The position numbers were made by a program, and so were the translations under genes. Positions 32,177 to 50,096 of a stretch of DNA of 64,000 bases are shown piece by piece. The number at the start of each line of letters is the position of its first letter. Within the stretch, counting starts at the first letter, position 1. The notes beneath the pieces were generated by a model that made no database searches, was not told the DNA's origin, and saw only the letters and a program-made list of their open reading frames with translations. The stretch is from Sandaracinobacteroides sayramensis (lineage in GTDB: Bacteria; Pseudomonadota; Alphaproteobacteria; Sphingomonadales; Sphingomonadaceae): the NCBI RefSeq assembly GCF_022014495.1, contig NZ_JAKLSQ010000003.1, forward strand, positions 162,575-226,574, written 5' to 3'.

Positions 32177-32253
<77 letters not shown>

Positions 32254-32350: not shown

Positions 32351-32372
32351 TTACAAGCATACCCGCTTGTAA
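32351..32372. promoter_or_regulatory. Operator-like palindrome 1 (upstream of the symporter)
   Basis: TTACAAGC-ATACCC-GCTTGTAA: perfect 8-bp arms with a 6-base spacer, 58 bp before the symporter start. It is the same design as the sites at 34116-34137, 38536-38557 and 41961-41982. Proposed repressor-binding site of the local carbohydrate regulon. Confidence 0.7.
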
Positions 32373-32429
32373 TCTGGCCAGCCTTCTCACAAAAAGGCCC
32401 GGAGGGTGCAGAAAAGGGAGTGGGGCGGG

Positions 32430-34025
32430 ATGCAGCTCGCGACGATCGATATCGTGGTGGTGGGAATATACGGAATCGCGATCCTGTTTCTCGCCCAATG
32501 GGTCAGCCGTGAAAAAGACGGTAAGGTCAAGGACTCGTCCGACTACTTCCTTGCGTCGAAGAATCTCCCTTGGTGGGCCATCGGAGCGTCGCTGATCGCA
32601 GCCAACATCTCGGCCGAACAGATCGTCGGCATGTCCGGGTCGGGCTATGCGGTCGGGCTGGCGATCGCATCCTATGAATGGATGGCGGCACTTACGCTGC
32701 TGATCGTGGGCAAGTTCTTCCTGCCCATCTTCCTGAAGAACGAAATCTACACGATGCCGCAATTCCTGGAGCAGCGGTACGGGACCAGCATTCGCACCAT
32801 CATGGCGGTGTTCTGGCTCATTCTCTATGTGTTCGTGAACCTTACCTCGATTGTCTGGCTCGGCTCGATCGCGGTCAACAAGGTGGCCGGCGTCGACCAG
32901 GACATCGCGCTGTTCGCGCTGGGAGGTTTCGCCCTCGTCTATCAACTCTACGGCGGGCTCAAGGCCGTGGCCTTGACCGATATCGTGCAGGTGACTTTGC
33001 TTGTGTTGGGCGGGTTGCTGATCGCGGGCATCACGCTGAGCGAACTCGGTGGCGACGCCGGCGTCGTCGGCGGCTTCACGCGGCTCACCACCGAGCTGCC
33101 CGATAAATTCGACATGATCCTGACGAAGGACAACCCCTTCTACAAAGACCTGCCGGGCCTGTCGGTGCTGATCGGCGGCATGTGGATCGCCAACCTCAGC
33201 TATTGGGGTTTCAATCAGTATATCATCCAGCGGGCCCTCGCGGCGAAGAGCCTGGCCGAAGCGCAGAAGGGCGTGGTGTTCGCGGCCTTCCTGAAGCTGC
33301 TGATGCCCGTGATCGTCGTTCTGCCCGGGATAGCCGCGGTGATTCTGGCGCCCGACCTCGCCAAGCCGGACGAGGCTTATCCGACGATGATGCGGCTGTT
33401 GCCGCCCGGCATTCTCGGGTTGGTTTTCGCGGCGCTGATGGCGGCGGTGATCGCCTCCACCGCGTCCAAGATCAATTCGATTGCCACGATCTTCACGCTC
33501 GACCTCTATGCCAAATACAAGGGCGTCGAGAGTCGGGCCGAAGACGCCGAGGGGCGCGATGCGAACGAGAGGCAATTGGTCCTCGTCGGGCGGATGGCCG
33601 CCGCCATCGCGACGGTGATTGCGCTGGTCGTGGCGCGGCCATTGCTCGGCAACTCGGATCAGGCGTTCCAGTTCATCCAGGAATTCTCCGGCTTCTTCAC
33701 GCCGGGCATCACCGTGATCTTCCTGCTGGGCCTGTTCTGGAAGCCTGCGAGCGAAGCGGGTGCCATCGCCGCCGCCATCGCCTCGGTCGCGCTGAGCTAT
33801 CTGTTCAAGATGTATTTGCCCGGCCTGCCTTTCATGGACCGCATGGGATGGGTATTCCTGATCGCGCTGGGGCTCGCTGTCGTGATGTCGCTGGCCATGC
33901 CTTCCGCGACCGGTCGCGACCGCATCAGCACGCAGGGCATCAGCTACCGGACGACGAGGGGATTCAACATCGCCTCGGCCGCCGTGATCGCGATCCTCAT
34001 CGCCCTCTACGCAACCTGGTGGTGA
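32430..34025 (+). CDS. Sodium/solute symporter (SSS family), sugar-type
   Basis: 531-aa inner-membrane transporter with about 13-14 hydrophobic helices. SSS signatures include [19 protein letters not shown] and [19 protein letters not shown] (the SGLT/vSGLT-type segment near residues 170-190), and [20 protein letters not shown] in the region of the sodium-site helices. It resembles sodium-galactose/glucose symporters, and the neighbouring glycosidases support a sugar or glycoside substrate. ATG 32430 starts [15 protein letters not shown]; a GTG at 32406 is an alternative. Confidence 0.9.
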
Positions 34026-34085
34026 CGGCTTGGAAGCCCTTGCCTAGCGAAGATGCCGGGCAGGCAAGCAGCATCCGCACTTCCG

Positions 34086-34099
34086 CGCTTGCGCAAGCG
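34086..34099. promoter_or_regulatory. 14-bp perfect palindrome between symporter and GH1
   Basis: CGCTTGCGCAAGCG, perfect dyad with no spacer, 12 bp upstream of the larger palindrome. It contains the same GCTTG/CAAGC halves as the operator-like sites but in a compact layout. It may be a second regulator's site or an auxiliary operator. Confidence 0.4.
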
Positions 34100-34110
34100 A
34101 TAAAGGCGAG

Positions 34111-34144
34111 CCTATTTTGCAAGCAAAGTTGCTTGCAAAATAGG
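34111..34144. promoter_or_regulatory. Operator-like palindrome 2 (upstream of GH1)
   Basis: Perfect 16-bp arms CCTATTTTGCAAGCAA / TTGCTTGCAAAATAGG with an AG spacer. Its core (34116-34137) is TTGCAAGC-AAAGTT-GCTTGCAA, the shared operator design. The right edge overlaps the GH1 ribosome-binding site (GGAGGGGGAG), so it could also act as an mRNA hairpin. No T-run follows on the plus strand. Confidence 0.75.
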
Positions 34145-34154
34145 AGGGGGAGAA

Positions 34155-35453
34155 ATGGACCGTCGGACTTTGATGGGGATGATCGGCGTGGGCGTTGCCT
34201 CCGCCGCGCTTCCGGCAGCGGCGGCGCTGTCGAAGCCGGGCCGGGCTCCGCGCGGGTTCCTGTGGGGAACGGCCGGAGCGGCATATCAGGTCGAGGGTGG
34301 CAACGTCGCAAGCGACCTCTGGGTTTTGGAGCAGTTGAAGACGCCTCTGTTCGCCGAGCCGTCGGGCGACGCCTGCGATGTCTATCATCGCTATGAAGAG
34401 GATCTGGCGCTGGTGGCGCGGCTGGGCTTCAACTGCCACCGGCTGGGAATCGAATGGTCCCGCATCGAGCCGGAACGGGGGCAGGTTTCCGAGGCGGAGC
34501 TCGCCTATTACCGGCGTCTGCTGCAGGCCTGCGTGCGCCACGGGCTCAAGCCGGTCGTCACCTTCTCGCACTTCACGGTTCCACGCTGGGTCGCAGCCAG
34601 CGGCGGTTTCAAGGATCCGGCGAACGTCGAGGCTTTCGCGGCGCATTGCGCCCGCCTGACCAGGGCAATGGGGGAGCTGATCCACCTCGCCGCCACGTTC
34701 AACGAGCCGAATCTTTCCACAGTCGTCCGCTGGAGCGGGCTTGGCGAGAAAATCCGCCCGTTCATCGAAAGCATCCAGAAGGCGGCCGGCGCCTCGCAGA
34801 ATGCCCCGAACTGGAGTTCGCCCATGCTGGGGGGAGAATCGCATTTCGATGGCATCGTCGCGGCGCACAGCCGCGCCATCGAGGCGATCCGCGAGGCGGG
34901 TGGGCGCTTCCCGGTCGGCTTGACCCTGGCGCTGCCCTCGGACACGGCGGCTGGGGGTGACGATGGCCCGCTGAAACGCAAACAGGCCGAGATGATGGAC
35001 CGCTGGCTCGCCGCGCCGGGGGATTTCATCGGCGTGCAGACCTATACGAGCACCCCGGTCGGCCCCGAAGGCGATCTGCCACCGCCGCCGGGCACCGAGT
35101 TGACGCAGATGGGCTATCCGTTCACCCCGGACGCCGTGGAAGGCGCGGTGCGGATGGTCGCTGCGCGCACATCGAAGCCGATCTACATCACCGAAAATGG
35201 CGTGGCGACCGAGGACGACAGCCGCCGCATCGCCTATATCGACGGCGCGATAGCCGGCGTCCAGCGGCTGCTGGCCGATGGAATCGATCTTCGCGGCTAT
35301 ATCCACTGGTCACTGCTGGACAATTGGGAATGGATGCACGGCTACAAGCCGAAATTCGGGCTGGTCGCTGTCGACAGGAAGAGCTTCAGGCGAACGCCCA
35401 AGCCATCGGCCGCGCATCTGGGCGCCATCGCCCGGCGCGGGGGGCTGGCATGA
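34155..35453 (+). CDS. Beta-glycosidase, GH1 family, exported
   Basis: 432 aa. Twin-arginine-type leader (MDRRTLMGMIGVGVASAALP) indicates export, unusual for GH1 enzymes, which are mostly cytosolic. The acid/base glutamate is in TFNEPN (near residue 184) and the nucleophile in YITENG (near 346). RGFLWGTAGAAYQVEGG is the canonical N-terminal signature. Hydrolyses beta-glucosides, galactosides or related sugars. The stop overlaps the esterase gene (ATGA). Confidence 0.93.
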   Translation: MDRRTLMGMIGVGVASAALPAAAALSKPGRAPRGFLWGTAGAAYQVEGGNVASDLWVLEQLKTPLFAEPSGDACDVYHRYEEDLALVARLGFNCHRLGIEWSRIEPERGQVSEAELAYYRRLLQACVRHGLKPVVTFSHFTVPRWVAASGGFKDPANVEAFAAHCARLTRAMGELIHLAATFNEPNLSTVVRWSGLGEKIRPFIESIQKAAGASQNAPNWSSPMLGGESHFDGIVAAHSRAIEAIREAGGRFPVGLTLALPSDTAAGGDDGPLKRKQAEMMDRWLAAPGDFIGVQTYTSTPVGPEGDLPPPPGTELTQMGYPFTPDAVEGAVRMVAARTSKPIYITENGVATEDDSRRIAYIDGAIAGVQRLLADGIDLRGYIHWSLLDNWEWMHGYKPKFGLVAVDRKSFRRTPKPSAAHLGAIARRGGLA

Positions 35454-36406
35454 GACGGGGTGTCGGCGCGATCCTCGCGCCCGGCCTCAGCTTGCTGCTG
35501 GCGGCTGCGGCACCGGCGCCTTTGGTTGCCCCGCCACCGGCTGCGACCTTGCCGGCGGATTGGGCCTCGGCGCCCGCAATAGCGCTATGGCCCGAAGGCC
35601 ATCTGCCGGACGTGCAGCCGAAACCGCCGCTGGCGATGCCGAACCTGCCCCAGGTCTTTGTTCAGGCGGTCGCGGAGCCTGGCCTGCGCCTGTTCCGGCC
35701 AGAGAAGCCCAATGGACGCGCCATCCTCGCCATCCCCGGCGGCGGCTATTTCTTCGTTTCGGTCGGCAACGAGGGTGTCGACGTGGCGCGCAAGTTCAAC
35801 CGGCTGGGCTACACCGTCTATGTGCTGACCTATCGTCTCCCCGGTGAGGGCTGGGCCGATAGGGCCGACGTGCCGCTGCAGGACGCCCGCCGGGCCGTCC
35901 GCCTGATGAAGTCGCGCGCGGCGATCGACGGTTTCAATGCCGAGCGGATCGCCGTGCTCGGCTTCTCCGCCGGCGGGCATCTTGCTGCCACGCTGGCAAC
36001 GGACGACAGCGCCGATGTGCCTTCCGATGCCGTGGACAGGCTGAGCGCAAGGCCGCAGGCGGTCGGTCTCATATATCCGGTGATCACGATGGGCGAAAAG
36101 GCGAACGCCCCCAGCCGGCTGCTGCTGCTGGGGCGTGAACCGTCAGCGGCACTGGTGAACCGCCGTTCGGCGGAGCGGCATGCGGGAGCCGACACCCCGC
36201 CCCTGTTCCTGTTCCATTCGGTCGACGACACCACCGTTCCGGTGGAGAACAGCCAGATGATGTTCGAGGCGATGCGGTCGGCGAAGCGGCCGGTGGAGAT
36301 GCATCTGGTGCAGGAAGGCGGCCATGGCTATGGCACCGGCTTCCAGGGCACGCCTTCCGCCATGTGGCCCGAGCTTTTCCACGCCTGGCTCAGCCGCCAG
36401 CCCTGA
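35450..36406 (+). CDS. Secreted alpha/beta-hydrolase esterase (acetyl-xylan-esterase-like)
   Basis: 318 aa with a signal peptide (MRRGVGAILAPGLSLLLAAA). Oxyanion loop IPGGGYFF, nucleophile elbow GFSAGGHLAA, acid VDDTTVPVEN, and His in EGGHGYGTG. This pattern is common in BD-FAE/acetylxylan-type esterases that strip acetyl groups from glycans. It is coupled to GH1 by a 4-bp overlap; its 3' end overlaps the convergent GH20 gene by 17 bp. Confidence 0.85.
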   Translation: MRRGVGAILAPGLSLLLAAAAPAPLVAPPPAATLPADWASAPAIALWPEGHLPDVQPKPPLAMPNLPQVFVQAVAEPGLRLFRPEKPNGRAILAIPGGGYFFVSVGNEGVDVARKFNRLGYTVYVLTYRLPGEGWADRADVPLQDARRAVRLMKSRAAIDGFNAERIAVLGFSAGGHLAATLATDDSADVPSDAVDRLSARPQAVGLIYPVITMGEKANAPSRLLLLGREPSAALVNRRSAERHAGADTPPLFLFHSVDDTTVPVENSQMMFEAMRSAKRPVEMHLVQEGGHGYGTGFQGTPSAMWPELFHAWLSRQP

Positions 36407-38564
36407 CCGCCGCCTCCAGCAGCACCTCCAGGCCCGGCCCGATCTTCAGGATCAGGTCGGCCGGAGGCTGTTGGGAAATGAACGGATCAAAGGGCCGCCA
36501 CGACGCAGCCTCTTGTTTCCGCAGCGTTTCCAGCAGCGCCCGGCCCTCTGCCGCGCGGCTTGCCGCGAGTGGTTCGCCGGCGTCCAGCGCGGCGACCGCA
36601 TCCAGCCCCAGCTTCGCCAATGCGGCCAGTTGAGCGGAGGTCGGAAGCGCTTCTTCAAGCATTGGATGGCCCTTGGCCAGCGCCTTGAAGCGCGTATCAT
36701 TGGCCTGCCATATGGCGAGGCGAGCCGCCAGTTGCGGCGCCAGCGCGCGCTCTCCGGCCGCGAGCCTTTTCGCCTCGGCGGTGAAGCGCCGCGCCACGAG
36801 GCTGTCCACCGGGGCGGCATCCGCCGGTGCGTTCAGCGATTGCACGATGGTCTTGCCCGCCAGCATGGCGCGGATGCGATGGTCGTGCGCCATGTTGCGG
36901 ACAGGCCCGGCCACTTCCAGCAGTGTCGCCAGCGCCTCGGGATCGGCCGGCGCCAGCCGTTCGATCATCCGCGTCCGCGCCGACACATTGCGCACGCCGG
37001 AGGCGGACAATTGCGCCGAAACCACTGTCAGGCGCGCGTACATGTCGTCAATGTCGCGGACGGAACGGTTCGACCAGAAGCGTTCCGCCAGCGCCGCCGC
37101 CCGCGGCCAGAGCTGATGGTCGATCAACTCGTCCGTCGCTATCTCCCCCCAGAGCGCCATCTCGCCCCCCAGAAGGTTCCGCTCCTGCTCAGGCGTGAGC
37201 GGCGCCCTGGGCCGATCCACCTGGGCATCGGCCACCATCGCCGCCAGAAGCGGGCTCAGCTTGCGAAGCGTCGCGGCATGATCCGGCGTCAGCCCCGCTC
37301 CCGACGTCTGGGCCGGATCCAGCGCATAATGATACTCGGCCGGCATCAGCAGGTTCAGATAATAGCCCGCGGACATCAAGGTGGGGTGGTTGCCGGCCGT
37401 CGCATTCGCCATGGCGTTCGATGTCTGCCAGGCCTGAACCACCACATTCTTGTCGACTCCTGCGGCGGCCATCTCTTCCCAGCCGATCATGGTCTTGCCT
37501 TGAGCCTTCAGGATCCGCCCTGCCCTGCGTGCGAACCAGCTTTCCACGGCATGCTGGTCGGCGAGACCTTCCCTTGCTATCCATTCCGTCATGCCGGGCG
37601 CATCCTTCCAGACCCCGGCGCTGACCTCGTCTCCGCCGGCGTGGAAATGCGGATCGGGAAACAGAGCCGCCATTTCCGCGAACAGCCCTTCCAGAAAGCG
37701 CCACATGGCCGGCGAAGCCGGGTTGAGGGCAGCCGCCTTCAGGCCCGGGATCGGCGACTGCACCAGCACGCCGATTTCAGGATAAGCCTCCACCATGGCG
37801 CGGCTATGGCCGGGCACGTCGAACTCGGGAATGATCCGCACGCCCCGCGCTTCGGCATAGCCGATCAATTCGCGGATGTCGGCCTGCGTGTAGAAAGGGC
37901 CGCCGGCGTTCAGCCTGGGATAGCGGCGGCTTTCCACGCGGAAACCCTGGTCGTCGGAGAGATGCAGATGCAGCGTGTTCAGCTTCACACGCTCCATGGC
38001 GTCGATCTGGCGCTTCAGCGTCTCGATGGAAATGAAGTTCCGGGCCGGATCCAGCAACACACCGCGCCACGCAAAACGCGGTTTGTCGTCGATGCGTTGC
38101 AGCGGAATCCGGATCCCGTCGGGGGACAGGCCAACCAGTTGCCGAAGCGTCGCCAGCGCCCGCAAGGCCCCGGTCGACCCGTCCGCCTCGATCGCCACGC
38201 CATCGGCGCGGACCTCCAACCGATAAGCTTCCCCCCGGTCGGCCGCGTTTTCCGTCTGGAGGCAGCCGATGCGCAAGGGCACCGGCGCACCCGCCTGAAG
38301 CCGCAGGCCGGTCTGCCTGTCGACGTCGGACTGAAAGCGCCGGGCCGCGGCATCCAGCTTCTCCGCAGGCCCGCAGCCCTTCCATTGAACCAGGAACGGG
38401 CCGGAGACGCCGAGCTTTTCGCCATTCGGAGAAACGGCAATCGCATGCGGCATGGGCATCAGCGCCGAAGACGCCATGGCGGAGGTGGAAACTCCCAACG
38501 CCAATGCAGCGGACATGCTGCGCAGCAAAGGCCATTTACAAGCCAATCTGTTTGCAAGATGCAT
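36390..38564 (-). CDS. Beta-N-acetylhexosaminidase, GH20 family
   Basis: About 724 aa. GH20b domain N-terminal, then the catalytic TIM barrel with the Asp-Glu pair in FHAGGDEVSAG and upstream MERVKLNTLHLHLSDDQGF. Cleaves terminal GlcNAc/GalNAc. Start 38564 (MHLANRLACKWPLLRS then SMSAALALGVSTSAMA) gives a signal peptide with a basic n-region; the alternative ATG 38516 (MSAALALG) would leave the operator at 38536-38557 upstream rather than inside the gene but lacks a basic n-region. The C-terminal region after the barrel is helical. Confidence 0.9.
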   Translation of the reverse strand: MHLANRLACKWPLLRSMSAALALGVSTSAMASSALMPMPHAIAVSPNGEKLGVSGPFLVQWKGCGPAEKLDAAARRFQSDVDRQTGLRLQAGAPVPLRIGCLQTENAADRGEAYRLEVRADGVAIEADGSTGALRALATLRQLVGLSPDGIRIPLQRIDDKPRFAWRGVLLDPARNFISIETLKRQIDAMERVKLNTLHLHLSDDQGFRVESRRYPRLNAGGPFYTQADIRELIGYAEARGVRIIPEFDVPGHSRAMVEAYPEIGVLVQSPIPGLKAAALNPASPAMWRFLEGLFAEMAALFPDPHFHAGGDEVSAGVWKDAPGMTEWIAREGLADQHAVESWFARRAGRILKAQGKTMIGWEEMAAAGVDKNVVVQAWQTSNAMANATAGNHPTLMSAGYYLNLLMPAEYHYALDPAQTSGAGLTPDHAATLRKLSPLLAAMVADAQVDRPRAPLTPEQERNLLGGEMALWGEIATDELIDHQLWPRAAALAERFWSNRSVRDIDDMYARLTVVSAQLSASGVRNVSARTRMIERLAPADPEALATLLEVAGPVRNMAHDHRIRAMLAGKTIVQSLNAPADAAPVDSLVARRFTAEAKRLAAGERALAPQLAARLAIWQANDTRFKALAKGHPMLEEALPTSAQLAALAKLGLDAVAALDAGEPLAASRAAEGRALLETLRKQEAASWRPFDPFISQQPPADLILKIGPGLEVLLEAAVRAGG
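38536..38557. promoter_or_regulatory. Operator-like palindrome 3 (GH20 / small secreted protein)
   Basis: TTACAAGC-CAATCT-GTTTGCAA: same 8-6-8 design with six of eight arm positions paired. It is near the 5' ends of the divergent GH20 and small-protein genes. Confidence 0.6.
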
Positions 38565-38622
38565 GGCGCGGACCGGCCCGTCAGACTGGATGGCCGGCAA
38601 TGCGATTCGGGAGGAGTATCCG

Positions 38623-38922
38623 ATGCGGAACATTGTTCTGGCCCTTTTCATTGCCGCTTCTGCGGTTCCGGTGGCGGCCGAGCCGGCTCCATCAGGCGCG
38701 GCGGCGGCCGGGAAACTGTCGGCAGACACGTCGATCGAAACGATCGCTGCCAGTCCGGCCGGCAGAACGGTGCTCGATGCGCAACTGCCTTCGCTGACGG
38801 CGCATCCCATGTATGAGGCGTTCAAGGCGATGAGCCTTCGGCAACTGCAGCCGATTTCGAACGGGGCGATTTCGGCCGAGGCGCTCGAAAAGGTCGACGC
38901 TGCGCTGAAGGCGTTGCCATGA
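38623..38922 (+). CDS. Small secreted protein of the carbohydrate locus
   Basis: 99 aa from ATG 38623, with a GGGAGGAG ribosome-binding site. Signal peptide MRNIVLALFIAASAVPVAA, then a short alanine-rich mature chain (AGKLSADTSIETIAASPAG; LRQLQPISNGAISAEALEKV). No cysteine and no recognised family. Divergent from GH20 across the shared operator-like site and convergent with GH3. Function unknown; co-location suggests a role in glycan use or surface assembly. Confidence 0.7.
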   Translation: MRNIVLALFIAASAVPVAAEPAPSGAAAAGKLSADTSIETIAASPAGRTVLDAQLPSLTAHPMYEAFKAMSLRQLQPISNGAISAEALEKVDAALKALP

Positions 38923-38927
38923 AAGAA

Positions 38928-38958
38928 GCCCGGCTCTCCGATCCGTGGAGAGCCGGGC
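38928..38958. terminator. Bidirectional hairpin terminator
   Basis: GCCCGGCTCTCC and GGAGAGCCGGGC form a perfect 12-bp stem with a 7-base loop between two convergent genes. The flanks carry short T-runs on each strand (CCTTTC on plus, TTCTTTC on minus), consistent with terminating both genes. Confidence 0.8.
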
Positions 38959-38964
38959 GGCCTT

Positions 38965-41217
38965 TCACCGGCGACGATCCTGCGCGGCAGCGTTCAGGAA
39001 GACACTGCCCGACAGTTCCGGCTCACCGGCCGATTTCCCGATGAAGAAGCGGTAATCGCCTGCGGGACGCGCCCATTTGCCGGCGCTCTCGTCATAGGAC
39101 AGCAGCACCCACGTATCCGCCTCGATGGTGACGGTGCGCGATTCGCCCGGCTTCAGCTGCACTCGTGCCCAGCCGGCAAGCCGAATGCTGCGGCCTGGGG
39201 GAGCAACATAGAGCTGGGCGACTTCCAGGCCCTCGCGCTTGCCGGTATTGCGGATGGTGGCCGTGACTTTCAGCGTCTGCCCGCCGGTCTGCTTGAGGCC
39301 GGAATAGTCGAAGCTGGTGTAGGTCAGCCCGAAGCCGAAGGGAAACAGCGGCTTTTCGCCCTTCAGGTGGAACCAGCGATAACCGACGTCGCTGCCTTCC
39401 ACATAGTCGATCGGGAAGGGATCGTAGCGCACGCCGATGCTCAGCGCCTTTTGCTTGGCCGGGTCGAAGCCGACGATCTTCGGATGCGGCAGCTGCTCCG
39501 TCGAGGCAGGAAAGCTGATCGGCAGGCGGCCGGACGGCGCGACACGACCCGTCAGGATCGAGGCGATGGCATCGCCGCCGCGCTGGCCGCTGAACCAGGC
39601 CTGCAGCACACCCCCGACCTTGCCGAGCCATGGCATCGCCACGGGATTGCCCGTCTGCAGCACGACCACGGTGCGCGGGTTGGCCCCGGCGACCGCTGCG
39701 ATCATGTCGTCCTGTCCCCAGGGCAGCGACAGGTCGGCGTGGTCGATTCCCTCCATTTCCGTCTTCACCGCGTAGACGATGGCGACGTCGGCCGAAGCGG
39801 CCAGCGCGGCCGCGCGCGCCGGATTGCTGCCATCGTCGAACTGGATCTCGGCATTGGGCAGCGCGGCGGCAAGCGCCTTGAGCGGGGAAGCCAGGCTGTA
39901 GGACGGCGCCATCAGCGCGCTCAGCGGATGGGTTCCCTCGGGCGCGTCGCGATAGACGCCGCCCCAGGGAATCACCTGGGAAGAGCCGCCGCCGATAGGC
40001 ACGCCCTTGTCCGCATGGCGGCCGATCACCACAATCTTGCGGGCGGTCGCCGCCAGCGGCAGGATACCGTCGTTCTTCAGCAGCACGATGCCCGCTTCGG
40101 CCAGTGCCTGCGCCCGGGCGGAATGCGCTTCCACCGGGATCTCGCCACCCGGCTTCGCCACCTTCTCCACCGCCCCGACCTCGATCATCGCGCGCACGAT
40201 CCGCCGCGCCATGTCGCGCACCCGCTGCCGTTCGATGCTGCCGTCGCCGACGGCGGCTTCCAGCCCTGCGAAGAAATCCTTGTCCTGCGGGGACTGCTGG
40301 TCCAGCCCGGCGTTCACCGAGGCATGCAGGCTGTGCACGGCCCCCCAGTCGGACATGACCCAGCCCTTGAAGCCCCAGTCGGTCTTCAGCACCTCGTTCA
40401 TCAGCCAGGGATTCTCGCAGGCGTAGAGGCCGTTCACCTTGTTGTAGGCGCACATAGCCGAGGCGGGGCGGCCGTCGCGCACGCCGATCTCGAAGGCGAG
40501 CAGGTCGGATTCGCGCAGCGCCGCTTCCGACATGCGGGCGTCATAGACGAAGCGCCCGGATTCCTGCGGGTTGACGGCATAATGCTTGATCGTGGAGGCG
40601 ACATGATGCGCCTGGATTCCCGCGATCTGCTGCCCTACGAGACGGCCGGCCAGCAGCGGGTCCTCGCCCAGATATTCGAAGTTGCGGCCGTTGCGCGGCT
40701 CGCGCGCCAGATTCACCCCGCCGGCCAGCATGATGTTGATGCCCTTGGCAAAGGCCTCTGCGCCGATGATGTCGCCGGCTTCCAGCGCGGCTTCCGGGCT
40801 GAAGGTCGCGGCGAGCGAAAGCGTGGAGGGAAGCGAGGTCGATTGCTGGCCGGGGCGCAGATAGCCGATGTCGGCGATGCCGAGGCTGGCGTCGGCCTGG
40901 TGCTGCGCGGGGAAGCCGACACGGGGGATCGCAGGCACGAAGCCGGCGGTGCCGATCGACCCTTCCGGCTTATCGATCCGCATCGCTTCGGGAATGAAGG
41001 CGGGCAACGGCACGCCCAGATCCTTGAGGCTTGCACCCGCCCTCGTCCGTGTCAGCGAAATCTGCTCGGCAAGGGTCATGGCATCGACAATCCGATCCGC
41101 CTGCGCATCGATGGTTGCGGCGTTCGCCATGCGTGTGTTTCCCTTTTGCGATTGGCCGGCTGCAGGAATCGCAGACAGCAGCATGATGCCGGCCAGAAGG
41201 CTGGTCGTTCCTTTCAT
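38965..41217 (-). CDS. Beta-glucosidase, GH3 family, secreted
   Basis: 750 aa with signal peptide (MKGTTSLLAGIMLLSAIPAA). GH3 N-terminal barrel with the nucleophile in KGWVMSDWGAVHSL, the GH3 C-terminal alpha/beta domain (VIGRHADKGVPIGGGSSQ), and a fibronectin-III-like tail. Usually hydrolyses beta-glucosides or related glycosides. It is 24 bp downstream of tetR, with a GGGAGGA ribosome-binding site, forming a tetR-GH3 operon. Confidence 0.95.
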   Translation of the reverse strand: MKGTTSLLAGIMLLSAIPAAGQSQKGNTRMANAATIDAQADRIVDAMTLAEQISLTRTRAGASLKDLGVPLPAFIPEAMRIDKPEGSIGTAGFVPAIPRVGFPAQHQADASLGIADIGYLRPGQQSTSLPSTLSLAATFSPEAALEAGDIIGAEAFAKGINIMLAGGVNLAREPRNGRNFEYLGEDPLLAGRLVGQQIAGIQAHHVASTIKHYAVNPQESGRFVYDARMSEAALRESDLLAFEIGVRDGRPASAMCAYNKVNGLYACENPWLMNEVLKTDWGFKGWVMSDWGAVHSLHASVNAGLDQQSPQDKDFFAGLEAAVGDGSIERQRVRDMARRIVRAMIEVGAVEKVAKPGGEIPVEAHSARAQALAEAGIVLLKNDGILPLAATARKIVVIGRHADKGVPIGGGSSQVIPWGGVYRDAPEGTHPLSALMAPSYSLASPLKALAAALPNAEIQFDDGSNPARAAALAASADVAIVYAVKTEMEGIDHADLSLPWGQDDMIAAVAGANPRTVVVLQTGNPVAMPWLGKVGGVLQAWFSGQRGGDAIASILTGRVAPSGRLPISFPASTEQLPHPKIVGFDPAKQKALSIGVRYDPFPIDYVEGSDVGYRWFHLKGEKPLFPFGFGLTYTSFDYSGLKQTGGQTLKVTATIRNTGKREGLEVAQLYVAPPGRSIRLAGWARVQLKPGESRTVTIEADTWVLLSYDESAGKWARPAGDYRFFIGKSAGEPELSGSVFLNAAAQDRRR

Positions 41218-41240
41218 CCTGATCCTCCCTTTTTTGTAGT

Positions 41241-41894
41241 TCAGTCCGTCATTCGGTTTTCTCGCGGCGGTTCGGATTCCTCGCCGAAGTTCAATATTCC
41301 CGTCTGCAGCCCGGCCTCGATCAGCCGGCCCAGCAATGTCACGGCGTCGCTCACCCTCTCGCCGTCGGGCGCCAGCACCTTGGCGACCGACAGCCCCCTT
41401 GCCGACCAGACGACCAGCCGCATGAAGGCCAGCAATTCGCGGGACTGGCCGGACGAGCGCCCGATGTGGGCAAGCGCATCGGCCTCGATCCGCGCCTGGA
41501 TCGGCGCCAGTTGCTTTGCCAGTTCCGGATCGCTGCGGGAGCCCTGCAGGATTTCGAGCACGGCAACGCCCGATGGGCGGCTCAAAGCCTCCCAGGCCAT
41601 CTGCGGATAGTGCGGTATACGGTCCCGCTCATTCTCGATCTGCGCAAGACAGCGGGCATAAAATGCGAGTTCCTCGCGATAGACCTGCTTCACCACGAAG
41701 GTCATCAGGTCCGCCTTGGTGCGGAACTGGTGCAGCATGGCCCCCCGGCTGATTCCCGCCGCTTCGGCAACCATGGTCGTGCTGGTCGCGCCATAGCCAT
41801 GTTCGTGCAGCACCTGGATCGCCGCGGCCAGCAATGCGTCGCAGGTGGCCGCGCTTCGCTCGGCCTGGGTCCGGCGCTTCACCCGTTCGGTCAT
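41241..41894 (-). CDS. TetR-family regulator, probable regulator of the carbohydrate locus
   Basis: 217 aa from ATG 41894 with AGGGGA upstream. The helix-turn-helix reads HGYGATSTTMVAEAAGISRG then AMLHQFRTKADL, the standard TetR N-terminal domain. The C-terminal half is the ligand/dimer domain and is not assignable. It is divergent from the isomerase-like gene across an operator-like palindrome, and co-transcribed with GH3. The proposed control of sites 32351, 34116, 38536 and 41961 is inference from location. Confidence 0.9.
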   Translation of the reverse strand: MTERVKRRTQAERSAATCDALLAAAIQVLHEHGYGATSTTMVAEAAGISRGAMLHQFRTKADLMTFVVKQVYREELAFYARCLAQIENERDRIPHYPQMAWEALSRPSGVAVLEILQGSRSDPELAKQLAPIQARIEADALAHIGRSSGQSRELLAFMRLVVWSARGLSVAKVLAPDGERVSDAVTLLGRLIEAGLQTGILNFGEESEPPRENRMTD

Positions 41895-41936
41895 CCAATC
41901 GTCCCCTAGCAATTCGGCCCTAGCAATCCGGTTAGC

Positions 41937-41964
41937 GCAAGTTCCGCATTTTTGCGGAACTTGC
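41937..41964. promoter_or_regulatory. Inverted repeat upstream of tetR
   Basis: Perfect 12-bp arms GCAAGTTCCGCA / TGCGGAACTTGC around TTTT. Its right end overlaps the first bases of the operator-like site. It could be a hairpin in the tetR leader or a separate operator. Confidence 0.5.
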
Positions 41965-41982
41965 AAGCAAGTTTGACTGCAA
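41961..41982. promoter_or_regulatory. Operator-like palindrome 4 (tetR / isomerase intergenic)
   Basis: TTGCAAGC-AAGTTT-GACTGCAA, same 8-6-8 design (six of eight arm positions paired). It sits between the divergent tetR-GH3 operon and the isomerase-like gene, the classic position for autoregulation by a TetR repressor. Confidence 0.6.
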
Positions 41983-42031
41983 ATGTGTCAGAGCCTATTG
42001 GCCTTGGCAAGAGGGAGATGGGAGGAAGAGA

Positions 42032-42961
42032 ATGAAATTGTTCTTGAATCGGCGACAGATGGCCGTTGGGGTGCTGGGGCTCGCCGCTTGTCGCGCGGCA
42101 GCCCGACCTTCCGCGAACAAGAACCCGCCGGCGCCTCCGCCCCGAATCGGTGTCGGGCTTTACATGATGCGCGAGTTGCTCGCGGCGGATTTCGACAAGG
42201 GGCTGGCCGACATCGCCGGGACCGGTATTACCAGCGTGGAATTCGCCGGCTATTTCGGCCGCAGCGCGGCCCGAATCCGTTCGGCGCTGGCGGCCAACGG
42301 CCTGCGCGGCGTCGGCGCGCACTGCCTGAGGCCGGACATGGCCGAAGCCGAAGTGGCGGAGGCGATCGCCTTCTGCGCGGAAGCCGGCCTGCCCTATGCC
42401 ATCGCGCCCCTGCCGCTCATACCGGCGCTGAAGCTGCCCATCACCTCGCGCGAAGAGGCGCAGGCCGCGGTTCTCAAACTGACCGCCAGCGATTTTCAGC
42501 GAAGCGCCGACATCTTCAACCGCTTCGCAGAGCAGGCCAAACAGGCGGGGGTTCGCTTCGCCTATCACACCCATGGGCTGGACTTCCTGCCCTTCGGCGA
42601 TCGTCACGCCTTCGACATCATGGTCGAGCGAACCGATCCCGCACTCGTCGATTTCGAACTCGATCTTGGGAACAGCATTTCCGCCGGCGTCGACCCCATC
42701 CCACTTCTCGAACGGCTGAAAGGCCGGGTGCCGCTGGCGCATGCGAAGGACTGGCAGCCCGGCTACGCGCCGTCGCCGGTGGACATTCCCGCCTCGGCAC
42801 CGATCGGTCGGGGCAGCATCGATTGGGCGAGGCTGCTCGCCGCGCTCAGAAACACAGGGGTGGCGGACCTGCTGATCGAACAGGAGCAAGCGCCGAAGGC
42901 GGAACTGCTGGAAATCCTGCGCGACAGCCGCATCTATCTGGAAGGCGTGGCCCGCCGCTGA
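42032..42961 (+). CDS. Sugar phosphate isomerase/epimerase-like lipoprotein
   Basis: 309 aa. Leader MKLFLNRRQMAVGVLGLAAC combines an Arg-Arg pair with a lipobox ending at Cys20, pointing to a Tat-exported lipoprotein. The rest is a xylose-isomerase-type TIM barrel (VGVGLYMMREL-like start, FAYHTHGLDF, VDFELDLGNSISAG, LAHAKDW with metal-ligand type residues). Such exported barrels often act on keto-sugars or glycosides rather than phosphates. Convergent with the SGNH gene (28-bp overlap). Confidence 0.8.
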   Translation: MKLFLNRRQMAVGVLGLAACRAAARPSANKNPPAPPPRIGVGLYMMRELLAADFDKGLADIAGTGITSVEFAGYFGRSAARIRSALAANGLRGVGAHCLRPDMAEAEVAEAIAFCAEAGLPYAIAPLPLIPALKLPITSREEAQAAVLKLTASDFQRSADIFNRFAEQAKQAGVRFAYHTHGLDFLPFGDRHAFDIMVERTDPALVDFELDLGNSISAGVDPIPLLERLKGRVPLAHAKDWQPGYAPSPVDIPASAPIGRGSIDWARLLAALRNTGVADLLIEQEQAPKAELLEILRDSRIYLEGVARR

Positions 42962-43848
42962 CGGGCCGCTTCGGCCAGCGCCTTTTCGGTGACAGTCTCC
43001 ATGCGCGCATAAGCAACCGCAGTCGGATGCACGCCGTCGGCGGCATCGGCGGACGTCAGCCCGCCTTCGCCGTCGTCCAGCAGCGCATGATAGTCGGCGA
43101 TCGTCACCCCCTCGGACTCCGCATAATGGCGGATCCAGTCGTTGAGGGCGGTGATGTGAGGCCGCGGCTCGATCTCGGGCCGCCAGTCGAAACGGCGGGC
43201 GGGCGGAAGCGTTCCCAGGACCACGGCGATGCCGTTGGCGCGCGCCAACTGCACCATGGCGCGAATATTGTCCGCAATCGCCGACAGGGTCGTGGGGCCG
43301 CCATTGCCGGCGATGTCATTGCTCCCGGCCAGGATATGCACGACCGAAGGCTTCAGCGCGACCACATCGGCCTGGAAACGCGCGAGCATCTGCGCGCTCG
43401 TCTGCCCGCTGATGCCGCGATCAACCCGCTCGCCGCGCGCGAAGAAATCCGGCCTCTCGCGAATCCAGTTCTCGGTGATGGAATCGCCCATAAACAGGAT
43501 GCGGTTCGGCCCCGCCGCGGGAAGCGCCGCATTGGCCGCACGATAGCGGCAGAGCCCGGCGTGGTCCGCGAGCTTCAGCTTCTCCTGCCATCGGGTGTAG
43601 ATTTCCAATCCCTCGGCGGACGGAGGCGGCGGCGCTTCCCCGCGCGCCTTCGCCAGAAGCATCCGCTTCATATAGTCCGTCACTTCAGAGGGGGCTGGCG
43701 GCAAGACGATGCAGGGATCGTCCAGAATGCCGACGCGCATTACCGTCGCAGCGGAAACGGTCTGCGCCGAAACAGTCTGCGCCGAAACGGCCGGCATGAT
43801 CAGGAAAAGCATCGCCGGAACGGCGACCAGTGGCGCAGGCATCCGCAT
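42934..43848 (-). CDS. Secreted SGNH/GDSL esterase
   Basis: 304 aa. Signal peptide MRMPAPLVAVPAMLFLI followed by a short repeat (SAQTVSAQTVSAATV). The four SGNH blocks are all present: Ser in FMGDSITENW, Gly in ISGQTS, Asn in AGSNDI, and Asp/His in DGVHP. Likely deacetylates carbohydrates. Divergent from the TonB receptor, with a GGGAGGGA ribosome-binding site. Confidence 0.88.
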   Translation of the reverse strand: MRMPAPLVAVPAMLFLIMPAVSAQTVSAQTVSAATVMRVGILDDPCIVLPPAPSEVTDYMKRMLLAKARGEAPPPPSAEGLEIYTRWQEKLKLADHAGLCRYRAANAALPAAGPNRILFMGDSITENWIRERPDFFARGERVDRGISGQTSAQMLARFQADVVALKPSVVHILAGSNDIAGNGGPTTLSAIADNIRAMVQLARANGIAVVLGTLPPARRFDWRPEIEPRPHITALNDWIRHYAESEGVTIADYHALLDDGEGGLTSADAADGVHPTAVAYARMETVTEKALAEAARQRRATPSR

Positions 43849-43890
43849 CGATTCCCTCCCGACAGCGGCTTTCTTCGGATATGCGACAAG

Positions 43891-43916
43891 TTACAAACGG
43901 TATTGACTGTTTGTAG
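43891..43916. promoter_or_regulatory. Palindrome upstream of the TonB receptor and SGNH esterase
   Basis: TTACAAAC-N10-GTTTGTAG with 7 of 8 arm positions paired. Half-sites resemble those of the four operator-like sites (TTACAAGC) but the spacer is 10 rather than 6. A TTGACT lies in the spacer and could be a -35 element. Related or distinct binding site; uncertain. Confidence 0.45.
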
Positions 43917-44030
43917 GATCAGGCCGAAGAAAGTGCAAGAATGCCGTCTCACAAAGCGAAGACGGCACAAATCGGGGCTTCGCCGGGACGGGTAAAGGGC
44001 TGTCGCGGCGTCTATCGGGGAGACTTCTGC

Positions 44031-46286
44031 ATGCGCGATTTCCATTATGTCAGCCTGTTGGCTTTGGCTGCCTCTCTTGCCGCGCCCGCTGCGGCGCAGA
44101 CTCCGGCGGCCTCCAGCGCTGCAGAGCCAGTTCTGGCCGACATCGTCGTCACCGGCACCAAGCGCGAGGAGCGATTGCAGGATGTTCCGCAATCCATCTC
44201 CCTGGTCGATTCGCAGGCGCTGCAGCAGCAGAACATCGCAAATGTGAACGATCTCGCCCGCGCCGTCCCTTCGTTCAACACCAGCTACGGGTCGGTGAAG
44301 ATCCGCGGCCTAGGCGCCCAGACCTATTCGCGTTCCGCCGAGGGCAGCGTCGGCGTGGTGCTGGACGGCGTGGCGCTCAGCAACGCCTCCACCCAGGCCA
44401 ATCCGGCCGGTCTTTTCGATGTCGCGCGCGTCGAAGTGCTCATGGGGCCGCAAGGAACGCTGTTCGGGCGCAACAGCTCGGCCGGCGTCGTCAACATCGT
44501 CACCAACGCGCCCGACCCGTCCAGGATGGAAATGGCCTTCCACGGGGAAGTCGGCAACCGCAACCAGCGGCGGGTGCAGGCCATGGCCAACCTGCCGGTC
44601 GGAGACGTCGCGGCCTTGCGCCTCTCCGCGCAGAGCAGCCGCACGGCCACCACGACCTACAACGTGCCCCGTTTCGGCTGGGACGATCTGCAGTCCAGCG
44701 GCGTTCGCGCGCGCTTCCTTGTGGAGCCCAGCGAGAAGCTCACGATCAACCTGATCGCCGACTATGAGAAGTTCAGCAACACGGGCGGCGGCTGGGTGGT
44801 GGTGCAGTCGACGCCGGGCAGTTTCCTCACCAACCAGTTGAACGCCTGCGGCATCGTCATCGGCCCGGACAACCGCAGCAACTGCTACAGCGGGCAATCC
44901 TATGGCCGCGACAAGGCTTATGGCGTGTCGGGCCAGATCGACTGGCAGATCGGCGAGTTCACCCTCACCTCCATCACCGCCAACCGCTGGCTGAAACAGG
45001 ATGGCGGCGGAGACTCGGACAGCGTTCCCGTCGATGTGCTGGACGTGAACGCCTCCACCCAGTCGATCTCCAACTTCAGCCAGGAAATCCGGCTGACCTC
45101 GCCATCCGGCGGCTTCGCCCAGTTCGTCGTCGGCGGCTATTATTTCCGCGGCAAGCAGGACGCGACCGGCATCCAGATGGGCAGCCTCAGGATCCTGCCC
45201 TTTGGCCTGAAGCTCGGCCAGACGTTCGAGACAGAGATCGATTCCAAGAGCCTAGCGGCTTTCGGACAGGCAACCTTCAATCTGACCGACAGCCTGCGCC
45301 TGATCGCAGGCGCGCGTCTGGAGCGGCAGGAAATCGAAGCCGACACCGTGCGCCAACTGGCCCCCGGCGCGCTGGCCCCCTTCGCATCGCTCGCTCCCGT
45401 GTCCGGCTCGAACAAGGACACGAGCTTCTCCTATCGGGGCGGCCTTCAATACGACTTCTCACCCGATCTGATGGCCTATGTGACCTATGCGCGCGGCTAC
45501 AAGGGCGCGGCCATCAACGACCAGACGACGACCGTGCTGGCGCCGCTCGTCGTGAAGCCGGAAATCCCGAAGGCGTGGGAAGGCGGCGTGAAGGCGACGC
45601 TGCTCGACAGCCGGATGGTGGCGAATCTCGCCATCTTCCGCACCGACGTCGAGAATTACCAGACCCAGTTCCTCGATTCCGCCACCGCCACCTATATCTA
45701 TGGCAATGCGCCTTCGATCCGCAGCCAGGGCGTGGAGTTGTCGGTTATGGCCAAGCTGACTCCAGGACTGAGCCTGAATGGTGGCCTGACCTTTACCGAC
45801 GCCACTTACGGAGACGGCTATCTGGTCGCCTGCGGCCCCAATGAGACGGAAGCGCAAGGCTGCAGGACCTATACCGTCGGCGCCACCACCACGACGGCGT
45901 CCGATGCCGGCGGACGCCGGCTTTCCGGCGTTCCGAAGTGGAAGTTCGTGGCGAGCGGGGAATATCGCGCCCCCGTCAGCGACCATGTGGAGCTTTATGC
46001 GCAGGCCGATGTGGTGCACACTTCCTCGATCGGCTTCACGGCGAGCTATGACCCGCTGGCGGCGACAGGCTCTCACACCCCGGTCGGCGCACGACTTGGC
46101 GTCGCGTTCGATGGCGGCAACATCAATCTCTCCGTCTTCGGCCGGAACATCTTCAACGAGCGGGTTCCGCTGGCCGTCGCGCAAACACCGCTTGCAGCGC
46201 AGCTGGGGGATTTGGGATCCTACATCCACATCCTGTCGCCCGAGTCCGTCCGCAGCATCGGGGTTGCGCTGGATTTCAAATTCTAG
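44031..46286 (+). CDS. TonB-dependent receptor of the carbohydrate locus
   Basis: 751-aa outer-membrane gated channel. Signal peptide MRDFHYVSLLALAASLAAPA, TonB-box-like DIVVTGTKREE, plug (RLQDVPQSISLVDSQ; GTLFGRNSSAGVVNIVT) and a barrel ending in Phe (GVALDFKF). No STN domain. Probably imports oligosaccharides or glycosides for the adjacent enzymes. Start 44031 has GGGGAG upstream; the open frame extends further but lacks a signal peptide. Confidence 0.93.
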   Translation: MRDFHYVSLLALAASLAAPAAAQTPAASSAAEPVLADIVVTGTKREERLQDVPQSISLVDSQALQQQNIANVNDLARAVPSFNTSYGSVKIRGLGAQTYSRSAEGSVGVVLDGVALSNASTQANPAGLFDVARVEVLMGPQGTLFGRNSSAGVVNIVTNAPDPSRMEMAFHGEVGNRNQRRVQAMANLPVGDVAALRLSAQSSRTATTTYNVPRFGWDDLQSSGVRARFLVEPSEKLTINLIADYEKFSNTGGGWVVVQSTPGSFLTNQLNACGIVIGPDNRSNCYSGQSYGRDKAYGVSGQIDWQIGEFTLTSITANRWLKQDGGGDSDSVPVDVLDVNASTQSISNFSQEIRLTSPSGGFAQFVVGGYYFRGKQDATGIQMGSLRILPFGLKLGQTFETEIDSKSLAAFGQATFNLTDSLRLIAGARLERQEIEADTVRQLAPGALAPFASLAPVSGSNKDTSFSYRGGLQYDFSPDLMAYVTYARGYKGAAINDQTTTVLAPLVVKPEIPKAWEGGVKATLLDSRMVANLAIFRTDVENYQTQFLDSATATYIYGNAPSIRSQGVELSVMAKLTPGLSLNGGLTFTDATYGDGYLVACGPNETEAQGCRTYTVGATTTTASDAGGRRLSGVPKWKFVASGEYRAPVSDHVELYAQADVVHTSSIGFTASYDPLAATGSHTPVGARLGVAFDGGNINLSVFGRNIFNERVPLAVAQTPLAAQLGDLGSYIHILSPESVRSIGVALDFKF

Positions 46287-48286: not shown

Positions 48287-49264
48287 CTACTGACTGTCGA
48301 TAATAATTTTATCGGCCGATGTGGAAACAGGTCTAGCGATCCCGTTCAGCTCAAGCGCCTTCACAAACCCGTCCACATCACCTGTCGAGAATACGCCGAC
48401 AATGCGCTTGTCGGGAATCGCGCCATCTTTGAAGACCAGTTTGCGCGTCGAATAACGGTTAACTTCCGTGATCGCCTTCGACAGCGGATCATGCAGGAAA
48501 ATCAGGCGCCCTTCGGTCCAGCTCGTTTCCTTCTGCACGTCGACGCTGGTCACCGTCCATTTCTGATCTGTGCCGACCACCAGTTGTCGGCCAGGAGTCA
48601 TATCGGCCCCGTTTCCGGTCTCGCCCGCCTCCTCGACCCGCACCTTTCCCTCTGCGAGGACGACGGTCACTTCCCCCTGGTCCACCCTCACCCCAAAGGC
48701 GGTGCCCACCGCCCGCACGCGCTTTCCGCCTGCGTTCACGACGAAAGGCCGCGAATGGTTTTTTGCCACCTCGAAGAAAGCGCGGCCGCGAACGAGCTTC
48801 ACCAGTCGCTCCTCGGGCTTGTCCGCGAAACGCATCTCGGTTTCGGAATCGAGCGTCACCACGGAGCCGTCCGGCAAAGTGATCGTGCTTCTTTGGCCGG
48901 TTTCGGTCTGGAATGCCTGCACCGGGCGATCCTGAAGGTCGAACATCAACCCGGGAAACATCATCCCGCTAGCAACGATCGCCAGCAGCAGAGAGGCGGC
49001 CAATGCAAGCCCGCGCCAGCGCAGCATTGAGCGGCGTTCCACAGGGGCCGGTTCCGACAAGACGGGGTCATCCATTGCGGATCCGGCGATGAACCACGCC
49101 CTGCCGACCGAGCGATAGGCATCGAGATGCGCTTCGGACTGATCCAGCCAGTCATTGAAGCGGCCTTCGTCGTCGCGGGTCATATCGCCTGCGAGGCGCT
49201 GATTATACCAATGCGCCGCTTCCGCTCGGAGCGTGTTGCGGTCGAAGGGGTGTCCGCCGTTCAT
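48287..49264 (-). CDS. FecR-family anti-sigma/sensor protein
   Basis: 325 aa. N-terminal DUF4880 (HWYNQRLAGDMTRDDEGRF) binds the sigma factor, a membrane helix (GLALAASLLLAIVASGMMF) follows, then the periplasmic FecR domain (LPDGSVVTLDSETEMRF) and C-terminal secretin-like DUF4974 (VEVNRYSTRKL-type, read as ITEVNRYSTRKLVFKD). It senses the substrate-loaded receptor and controls FecI. The ATG overlaps the sigma-factor stop. Confidence 0.93.
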   Translation of the reverse strand: MNGGHPFDRNTLRAEAAHWYNQRLAGDMTRDDEGRFNDWLDQSEAHLDAYRSVGRAWFIAGSAMDDPVLSEPAPVERRSMLRWRGLALAASLLLAIVASGMMFPGLMFDLQDRPVQAFQTETGQRSTITLPDGSVVTLDSETEMRFADKPEERLVKLVRGRAFFEVAKNHSRPFVVNAGGKRVRAVGTAFGVRVDQGEVTVVLAEGKVRVEEAGETGNGADMTPGRQLVVGTDQKWTVTSVDVQKETSWTEGRLIFLHDPLSKAITEVNRYSTRKLVFKDGAIPDKRIVGVFSTGDVDGFVKALELNGIARPVSTSADKIIIDSQ

Positions 49265-49923
49265 TGTCCGGCCTCCACTGCTTCGGTAATGTGCAGCAGG
49301 GCGCGGTGCATGAGATCTTTCACGGAATTGCGGCTGATACCCATTCGCTGCGCGATTGCCTGGTAAGTCAGATTCTCAAACCGATGGAGTTCGAAGGCTT
49401 CGCGTGTGCGCGGCGGCAGATTCTGTATCGCGGCGATCACCCGCCGATACTCCTCCTGCCCGATCGTGATCCGTTCGGGGGAGATCGGATCGTAGGCGCT
49501 CAGCCCCTCCGCCCATTTGTCGGACGACGAGACTATCCGCGATGCCTGTTCACGGTAGCGGCTGACCAGCACATTATGCGCTGTCCTAAACAAATAGCCT
49601 TCGAGGTTCTCGATCGAACCGTTCATGTATCTGGAGTGAAGCCGCAGGAAAACCTCCTGAACGAGATCGTCTACATCGCCATCCGCAATCCTGCGGCGGA
49701 AATAGCGGCGAAGGCCGGGGCCATAGGCCTCCATCCAGGCGACGGCATCCGGTTCGCGACGCGGAGCTTTCAACCGCCGAGCCTTTCCGAAAGGGGTTTC
49801 AGATTTCGAGGCCCGACCATTCCGTTTTCCCGCGCTTCCCCGATTATTCGGCCCCGGGTTTTCCGATGCCTGACAACCTAGACGCATAATCGGGGGCGAA
49901 GGGGGGTCTGACGCCGGCTCCAT
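49261..49923 (-). CDS. FecI-type ECF sigma factor
   Basis: Sigma-70 region 2 (VDDLVQEVFLRLHSRYM) and region 4 (LPPRTREAFELHRFENLTYQ) are intact, with the DNA-binding helix AQRMGISRNSVKDLMHRAL. The open frame gives an unusual N-terminal extension of about 60 residues; ATG 49923 is the first ATG, while MEAYGPGLRRYF (49737) would give a more standard 158 aa. Divergent from the STN-type TonB receptor, its likely target. Confidence 0.9.
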   Translation of the reverse strand: MEPASDPPSPPIMRLGCQASENPGPNNRGSAGKRNGRASKSETPFGKARRLKAPRREPDAVAWMEAYGPGLRRYFRRRIADGDVDDLVQEVFLRLHSRYMNGSIENLEGYLFRTAHNVLVSRYREQASRIVSSSDKWAEGLSAYDPISPERITIGQEEYRRVIAAIQNLPPRTREAFELHRFENLTYQAIAQRMGISRNSVKDLMHRALLHITEAVEAGQ

Positions 49924-50096
49924 GCCTATTATTTTCTTGAGGATCGCCAAAAATCACCGGCGACAACCAGAAATCTCAATTCAGCCGACCCCCCTGCCGA
50001 GCTTCATTTGCGTCAATGTAATTGGTGAGGAAATCCGCGTCAAAGCGGAAGAAGGGCAAAATCCCAAAATATAAACTTGAGTGGGAGGAAAAACCG

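Follow-up and report, generated by a model that had tools for sequence, protein, structure and literature searches.

Shared palindromes and a local TetR-family protein point to a self-contained carbohydrate regulon in Sandaracinobacteroides sayramensis

We analyzed a 64,000-nt stretch of Sandaracinobacteroides sayramensis DNA (assembly GCF_022014495.1, contig NZ_JAKLSQ010000003.1, positions 162,575 to 226,574; hereafter the window), in which a group of genes for carbohydrate uptake and hydrolysis shares a repeated palindrome. This locus, at 32351-46286, is very probably a self-contained regulon in which the locally encoded TetR-family protein represses all eight transcription units until it is released by a ligand. 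The reading rests on the sites themselves, their confinement to the locus, their conservation together with the TetR protein and their placement at unit heads, all of which are read directly from the DNA. The ten genes form eight transcription units by orientation and gaps, and five predicted operators head all of them: one before the sodium:solute symporter (SSF) gene, one before a unit of glycoside hydrolase family 1 (GH1) and esterase genes, and one in each of three divergent pairs, namely GH20 and a small secreted protein, tetR-GH3 and a TIM-barrel protein, and an SGNH hydrolase and a TonB-dependent receptor. A regulator and a predicted operator are thereby assigned to a complete uptake-and-hydrolysis locus, and the motif can be used to predict orthologous regulons in genomes of relatives within the family.

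The initial annotation of this DNA had described copies of the palindrome TTRCAAGC-N6-GNYTGYAA at four places and a relaxed copy with a 10-base spacer at a fifth. A search of both strands of the window for this pattern with up to 2 mismatches returned 8 strand hits, all at just four places; 100 dinucleotide shuffles of the window gave a mean of 0.45 hits and a maximum of 3. The four 22-bp sites, at 32351, 34117, 38536 and 41961, are all exact matches on the plus strand, in agreement with the described copies. The long arms noted for the GH1 site were also found (16 paired bases per arm, with a 2-base centre), at 34117-34138 and not at 34116-34137. The 10-spacer copy at 43891 is genuine and has one mismatch to the arms; it is not a relaxed version, since of the two forms it is the one that most resembles the sites of relatives. 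The position of site 38536 relative to GH20 depends on the start codon of that gene: with a start at 38564 the site lies inside the first codons, and with starts at 38528 or 38516 it sits 7 or 19 bp upstream.

We scanned the genome of the same organism (3,821,644 bases in 41 contigs) by pattern searches. With the slightly relaxed pattern TTRCAARC-N6-GNYTGYAA, exact matches occurred genome-wide only at the four 22-bp sites of the locus, where about 0.03 exact matches per genome are expected from composition alone. Allowing up to 2 mismatches gave 20 forward-strand and 9 reverse-strand hits; the same search with the pattern in reverse order gave 9 and 13. With 10-base spacing (TTRCAWRC-N10-GYWTGYAA), the site in the locus was the only match with 1 mismatch among the matches listed, and with up to 3 mismatches the total equalled the control (66 vs 65 per strand). 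The predicted operators are thus confined to the locus of their proposed regulator, which is what defines a local (cluster-situated) regulon. Scattering of the motif at unrelated genes had been named at the outset as an observation that would speak against a dedicated regulator, and these searches did not show it.

The sites recur with the regulator in other genomes. Eight relatives carry a TetR protein 58-65% identical to that of the window (G127, G307, G854, G642, G689, G779, G739 and G769). The TonB-dependent receptor, GH3, GH20 and GH1 genes are kept as neighbours in all eight, and the TIM-barrel and SGNH genes in seven; the latter two were not found in G689 within the stretch covered. Nine sites from relatives with a related TetR, and none from the window, went into a 26-bp matrix. 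Its top four places in the window were 43891 (32.9 bits), 41961 (12.5), 34113 (11.8) and 32347 (11.2), of which the last two correspond to sites 34117 and 32351, and the best place outside the proposed sites in the 64 kb scored 8.4. At the promoter between the receptor and SGNH genes of G127 and G307, the sequence TTACAAGC-AGTCAAGATC-GCTTGTAA is the perfect-arm counterpart of window site 43891.

The placement of the sites was assessed promoter by promoter against 200 dinucleotide shuffles, using matrices that left out the genome under test (leave-genome-out); the least possible p is 0.005. In the window, the eight unit heads gave p 0.005-0.015 (Table 1), and the two genes inside units without a site gave p 0.14 (esterase) and 0.43 (GH3). 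In the eight relatives, unit heads reached p 0.005 in 31/31 tests (tetR 8, TonB-dependent receptor 8, GH1 7, and TIM-barrel, SGNH, GH20 and small secreted protein 2 each), which represent 19 distinct sites because divergent genes share one. No site was detected at the 24 relatives' genes lying inside units (GH3 8, GH20 6, TIM-barrel 5, SGNH 5; smallest p 0.16). The GH1 gene of G779 was left out of this test as it has too little upstream sequence, and its site was present by other scans. Exact motif matches in four further genomes (G014, G033, G036 and G044) were dismissed as chance, as they lie inside mechanically called open reading frames (ORFs) of unrelated kind, with translations judged by eye. 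Outer-arm matches with 1-2 mismatches in L047, L051, L054, L056, L057, L058, L102 and L107 were likewise taken as chance.

We further compared 37 GH1 loci, the window included; five more distant GH1 places without a locus were left out. All nine loci whose GH1 is at least 63% identical (again with the window) come from genomes with a close TetR, and each has an upstream site (9/9, scores 11.8-33.4). None of the 28 loci with a GH1 of 45-55% identity has one (scores up to 3.6); at the thresholds used, the genomes of 22 of these loci have no TetR, and those of the other 6 have a distant one. The leave-genome-out promoter test agreed with this result. At the GH1 promoters the two arms change together, to TTACAGTC-N6-GACTGTAA in G127 and to TTACAATC-N6-GATTGTAA in G307.

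The window TetR matches the TetR_N helix-turn-helix domain at residues 21-64 (PF00440, 50.7 bits vs a cut-off of 24) and, as is characteristic of the family, has a predicted palindromic operator at its own, divergent promoter (41961-41982). No Pfam domain was matched by its C-terminal part. The window protein and all 8 close orthologues share one recognition segment, SRGAMLHQF, without any difference, and R50 is invariant in 31/31 aligned TetR proteins and aligns gap-free to Arg48 of Rv0078. In a more distant group, L113-L121, the segment reads [TS]RGALHHHF and the sites have a TTACATRC arm; in the TetR tree a single branch divides the two site types, but its support is weak (85/57) and the branches are long. 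Strong 26-bp sites of the TTACATRC type, with outer arms 7/8 paired, lie at about 12038 in L113, 12014 in L115 and 7930 in L120, where the TetR is 47-50% identical. Of the ORFs near these sites, three in L113 are without a Pfam match and one in L115 reads as a PETase just above the cut-off. Taken together, the relatives-only matrix, which placed four of the five sites on top and left out 38536, the sites at the unit heads of relatives, the GH1 co-occurrence and the identical recognition helix support the coordinated control by the local TetR that the initial annotation had proposed.

The protein is infrequent among the genomes sampled. It was detected in 12/397 genomes of the family (E 1e-20) and 14/396 of the order, both counts including the source genome, and in 2/7 genomes of genus g5 (E 1e-15) and 45/295 of genus g113 (E 1e-30). 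Neither the TetR nor the GH1 gene was found in five congeners of the source. A search of genome contigs with the TetR protein also returned a single locus, in an actinobacterium, where the match was 33% across 60 residues. An AlphaFold single-sequence prediction of the protein was all-helical with low confidence (mean predicted local distance difference test score 49.2, predicted template modelling score 0.39) and was not used.

The sites come in two designs. The 22-bp form with 6-base spacing occurs at the four window sites, at the GH1 promoters of G127 and G307, and in G560 and G683 at a distance of 1.6 kb from tetR. The 26-bp form occurs at window site 43891 and at many sites of relatives. 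For several sites of relatives, such as the one at GH1 in G642, the 22-bp unit is the better fit of the two. When 23 sites were read as 26-mers, their inner halves matched the half-site core GNYTGY at 4-5 of 5 positions in 42/46 cases, compared with 5.9% at random nearby places; the scores are partly circular because several of the sites had been picked by a matrix including the inner columns. Among nine sites chosen by the outer arms alone (window 43891, L044, GH1 of L109-L112, L113, L117 and L120, with near-identical copies left out), the inner halves matched at 4 or more of 5 positions in 15/18. When the 22-bp unit was laid along the 26-bp sites, the two registers that fitted best were offsets 0 and 4 in 43/46 slots, a result that is only supportive because it partly follows from aligning one outer arm. 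Since the inner halves match the 22-bp core, the 26-bp form looks like two 22-bp units with a 4-bp shift. The 22-bp palindrome would then be the basic operator, and the 26-bp sites, as two overlapping units, are probably taken by two dimers. The GH1 promoter has the 22-bp form in the window and genus g5 and the 26-bp-type form in most of genus g113. Tentatively, with the balance slightly on the doubtful side, one TetR may read both single-unit and double-unit operators, with promoters switching form in evolution. If true, the choice of operator form could give each promoter of one glycoside regulon its own strength or cooperativity, and the two spacing forms make a natural set for how TetR dimers share a palindrome.

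Several observations weigh against control of the whole locus by the one TetR protein. The assignment presumes a protein able to accept either spacing, 6 or 10 bases. With the relatives' matrix, site 38536 reaches 7.5 and so stays inside the window background (8.4); its case rests on the pattern first described and on the orthologous promoter. The unit heads were assigned once the sites were known, though by gene order alone. The matrix used for the GH1 co-occurrence contained four of the nine GH1 sites, and shared descent of close relatives inflates the contrast, so that the co-occurrence does not amount to many independent events. The six genomes with a distant TetR in this comparison lack a site at GH1, and at one distant GH1 promoter, that of G815, the score of 3.6 is above the maximum of 2.3 reached by 100 shuffles of it. 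No site was found in L101 (G584, TetR 51% identical; best score 4.2, with a contig end nearby) and no strong one in L053, a locus with a 32-35% identical TetR (10.2); the scan of such loci left out L051, L052 and L054. In L113-L121 the strong site lies about 1.7 kb from tetR and not beside recognised sugar genes, so the wider TetR family does not always serve sugar loci. Finally, the sole copy with 1 mismatch outside the locus, TTGCAAGCGGCGGCGTTTGTAG at C1:10643-10664, lies about 0.8 kb before genes reading as an efflux pump. It scores poorly with the relatives' matrix (best 1.3 in L059) and is probably a chance copy; the remaining possibility that it is not counts with the points above.

The two designs raise the question of whether two regulators are at work, the TetR reading only the 26-bp operator of the receptor and SGNH genes and a LacI, GntR or other protein reading the 22-bp palindromes. 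The half-site distances do differ by 4 bp, and the 6-spacer sites score far lower with the 10-spacer matrix (7.5-12.5 vs 32.9). However, the orthologous GH1 promoter carries the 6-spacer form in the window, G127 and G307 and the 10-spacer type in G854, G739, G769, G779 and G689, GH1 promoters without a close TetR have no comparable site (0/28), and the 22-bp core recurs in the inner halves of the 26-bp sites well above the random rate, also in the outer-arm-chosen set. Moreover, a Pfam search of the ten locus genes found no DNA-binding protein besides the TetR. We therefore regard a second regulator as improbable.

Activation of the locus by the TetR protein appears very improbable. TetR-family activators exist, and no -35 or -10 promoter elements against which to place the sites were mapped with confidence (3 promoter-like hits vs 1.5 expected, none usable). 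Against this, the sites end 16-114 bp from start codons, 16 bp at GH1 and right at the translation start of GH20, an arrangement that suits blocking better, and most characterised TetR-family members repress. It is hardly conceivable that the palindromes are RNA structures such as terminators or attenuators, or that they arose by chance or from a repeat element: divergent genes flank three of the five sites, no site coincides with any of 9 terminator-like hits, four exact sites stand against the roughly 0.03 expected, and the arms change together at orthologous promoters. In favour of a role in RNA, the GH1 palindrome, with its 16-bp arms, sits just ahead of the likely ribosome-binding site.

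For the single-repressor regulon, we infer binding, repression, a ligand and the number of dimers as follows. The TetR protein would bind the TTRCAARC-N6-GNYTGYAA palindromes as a dimer or as overlapping dimers and, without ligand, would most likely repress all eight units, its own included (autoregulation). A ligand from the imported compound, be it the glycoside, its aglycone or the released sugar, would free it from the operators. TetR proteins often sense hydrophobic ligands, a hint at an aglycone or an acylated glycoside as inducer. Ligand-released repression with autoregulation is likely by analogy with GusR (UidR) of E. coli, a TetR-type repressor of the glucuronidase operon with operators O1 and O2 upstream of gusA that is released by glucuronides (PMC9881133). 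As in that system, a TetR-family repressor would serve a glycosidase-plus-transporter unit; in contrast, five operators here head eight units including a TonB-dependent receptor, symporter, GH1, GH3, GH20 and esterases. A UidR chain (6ayi) appeared among weak PDB matches of the window TetR (E 0.0016), behind many others, and no UidR-type family was among its 13 NCBIfam matches. The window TetR would thus work like GusR but is not classed as UidR.

Other known regulators resemble single features of the system. In the sequence comparison with the PDB, Rv0078 (EthR2) was among the top two entries (E 2.7e-12 for residues 4-84), and its recognition segment TRGAMYHQF is close to SRGAMLHQF of the window TetR. 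It binds a 21-bp inverted-repeat operator as two dimers staggered by 7 bp, with Arg48-guanine contacts, and has Rv0077c as target (PMC6016246). The match covers little past the DNA-binding domain, and the stagger of 7 bp differs from the 4-bp shift proposed here. AcrR, MtrR, SmeT, TtgR and NalD chains in the PDB matched the DNA-binding domain, and the MtrR operator MCRTRCR-N4-YGYAYGK resembles the window palindrome in layout (PMC8053128). AcrR and MtrR control efflux pumps, whereas no efflux gene is present in this regulon. All 13 NCBIfam matches were under their own cut-offs (best, ScbR family, 42.6 bits vs 150; AcrR 35.7 vs 271; MtrR 37.8 vs 280), and by these curated cut-offs the protein is not an AcrR, MtrR, BetI, RutR or ScbR equivalog. 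DarR, likewise of the TetR family, binds two overlapping palindromes as a dimer of dimers, with one half-site weak, much as we suppose for the 26-bp sites; it is a cyclic di-AMP-binding protein with another motif (PMC10636190). A PsrA-type fatty-acid regulator was considered and dropped because the regulon genes are no fatty-acid genes.

In general organization the locus resembles CUT loci, which combine a TonB-dependent receptor, an inner-membrane transporter, glycosidases and a local regulator. It differs from the best-known CUT locus, which has a LacI-type regulator and not a TetR; loci that combine a TonB receptor with glycosidases are more usually controlled by LacI or GntR proteins than by a TetR. 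CUT stands for carbohydrate utilisation with TonB-dependent receptors, as described for Xanthomonas (PMC1790865). A local TetR regulon is of a known kind. No paper on this operator, or on the TetR of such a locus, was recognised by title or start of abstract among the matches listed in the open-licence literature, and in that literature the operator was not found described.

Table 1 Predicted operators and genes of the locus (positions in the window; p values from the promoter test)
Feature	Start	End	Strand	Details
22-bp operator (predicted) before SSF symporter gene	32351	32372		6-base spacing; arms 8/8 paired; 57 bp upstream of SSF start codon; p 0.005
22-bp operator (predicted) before GH1	34117	34138		exact match; arms 8/8 paired, 16 paired bases per arm; 16 bp upstream of GH1 start codon; p 0.005
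22-bp operator (predicted) at GH20 start	38536	38557		exact match; arms 6/8 paired; 65 bp upstream of small secreted protein; p 0.015
22-bp operator (predicted) between tetR and TIM-barrel gene	41961	41982		exact match; arms 6/8 paired; 66 bp upstream of tetR (p 0.01), 49 bp upstream of TIM-barrel gene (p 0.005)
26-bp operator (predicted) between SGNH and TonB-dependent receptor genes	43891	43916		10-base spacing; p 0.005
SSF sodium:solute symporter	32430	34025	+	PF00474, E 2.3e-65
GH1 glycosidase, apparent signal sequence	34155	35453	+	PF00232, E 5.3e-67
Alpha/beta-hydrolase esterase	35450	36406	+	PF20434 BD-FAE, E 1.6e-18; overlaps GH1 stop
GH20 beta-N-acetylhexosaminidase-like	36390	38564	-	PF00728, E 8.3e-86; start uncertain, 38516-38564
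99-aa predicted secreted protein	38623	38922	+	no Pfam match
GH3 glycosidase	38965	41217	-	PF00933 and PF01915; 23 bp after tetR, inside tetR unit
TetR-family regulator	41241	41894	-	PF00440, E 1.6e-13
Xylose-isomerase-like TIM-barrel protein (AP_endonuc_2)	42032	42961	+	PF01261, E 8.8e-13
SGNH/GDSL hydrolase	42934	43848	-	PF13472, E 1.6e-27
TonB-dependent receptor	44031	46286	+	PF00593, E 2.4e-39; PF07715

Pfam matches confirmed the gene identities previously given for the neighbours of the sites (SSF, GH1, GH20, TetR_N, AP_endonuc_2, GDSL/SGNH and TonB-dependent receptor) and added the esterase and GH3, which had gone unmentioned and each lie inside a site-headed unit. The nearest NCBIfam models to the esterase are PaeX (pectin acetylesterase) and AxeA1 (acetylxylan esterase), both below cut-off. 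Deacetylation, which had been listed among the coordinated functions, is just one possible role of the esterases. Relatives of the small secreted protein were found in L105, L108 and L109. The TIM-barrel gene has an apparent signal sequence, judged by eye, and a below-cut-off match to the IolE inosose dehydratase model; its product may be a periplasmic sugar-modifying enzyme. A carboxylesterase gene (COesterase), not there in the window, lies between GH3 and GH20 in the two relatives checked, L107 (12653-14212) and L108 (5695-7254). From GH1, GH3, GH20, the esterases and this carboxylesterase of relatives, our guess at the substrate is an acylated beta-glycoside or a GlcNAc-containing oligosaccharide.

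Upstream, a tRNA-Pro (TGG) gene at 32177-32253 on the plus strand ends about 100 bp before the first operator. The adjacent tRNA gene, together with the absence of TetR and GH1 from five congeners, could be a sign of acquisition beside a tRNA gene; the window was searched for another copy of the tRNA-Pro 3' end, a possible island mark, and none was found. Downstream, at 48287-53408 and 58404-63187, are two groups of FecR and TonB-receptor genes whose receptors have an STN domain, one of them including an extracytoplasmic function (ECF)-type sigma factor; a PepSY_TM protein comes after the other. Two kinds of receptor control therefore adjoin in this region.

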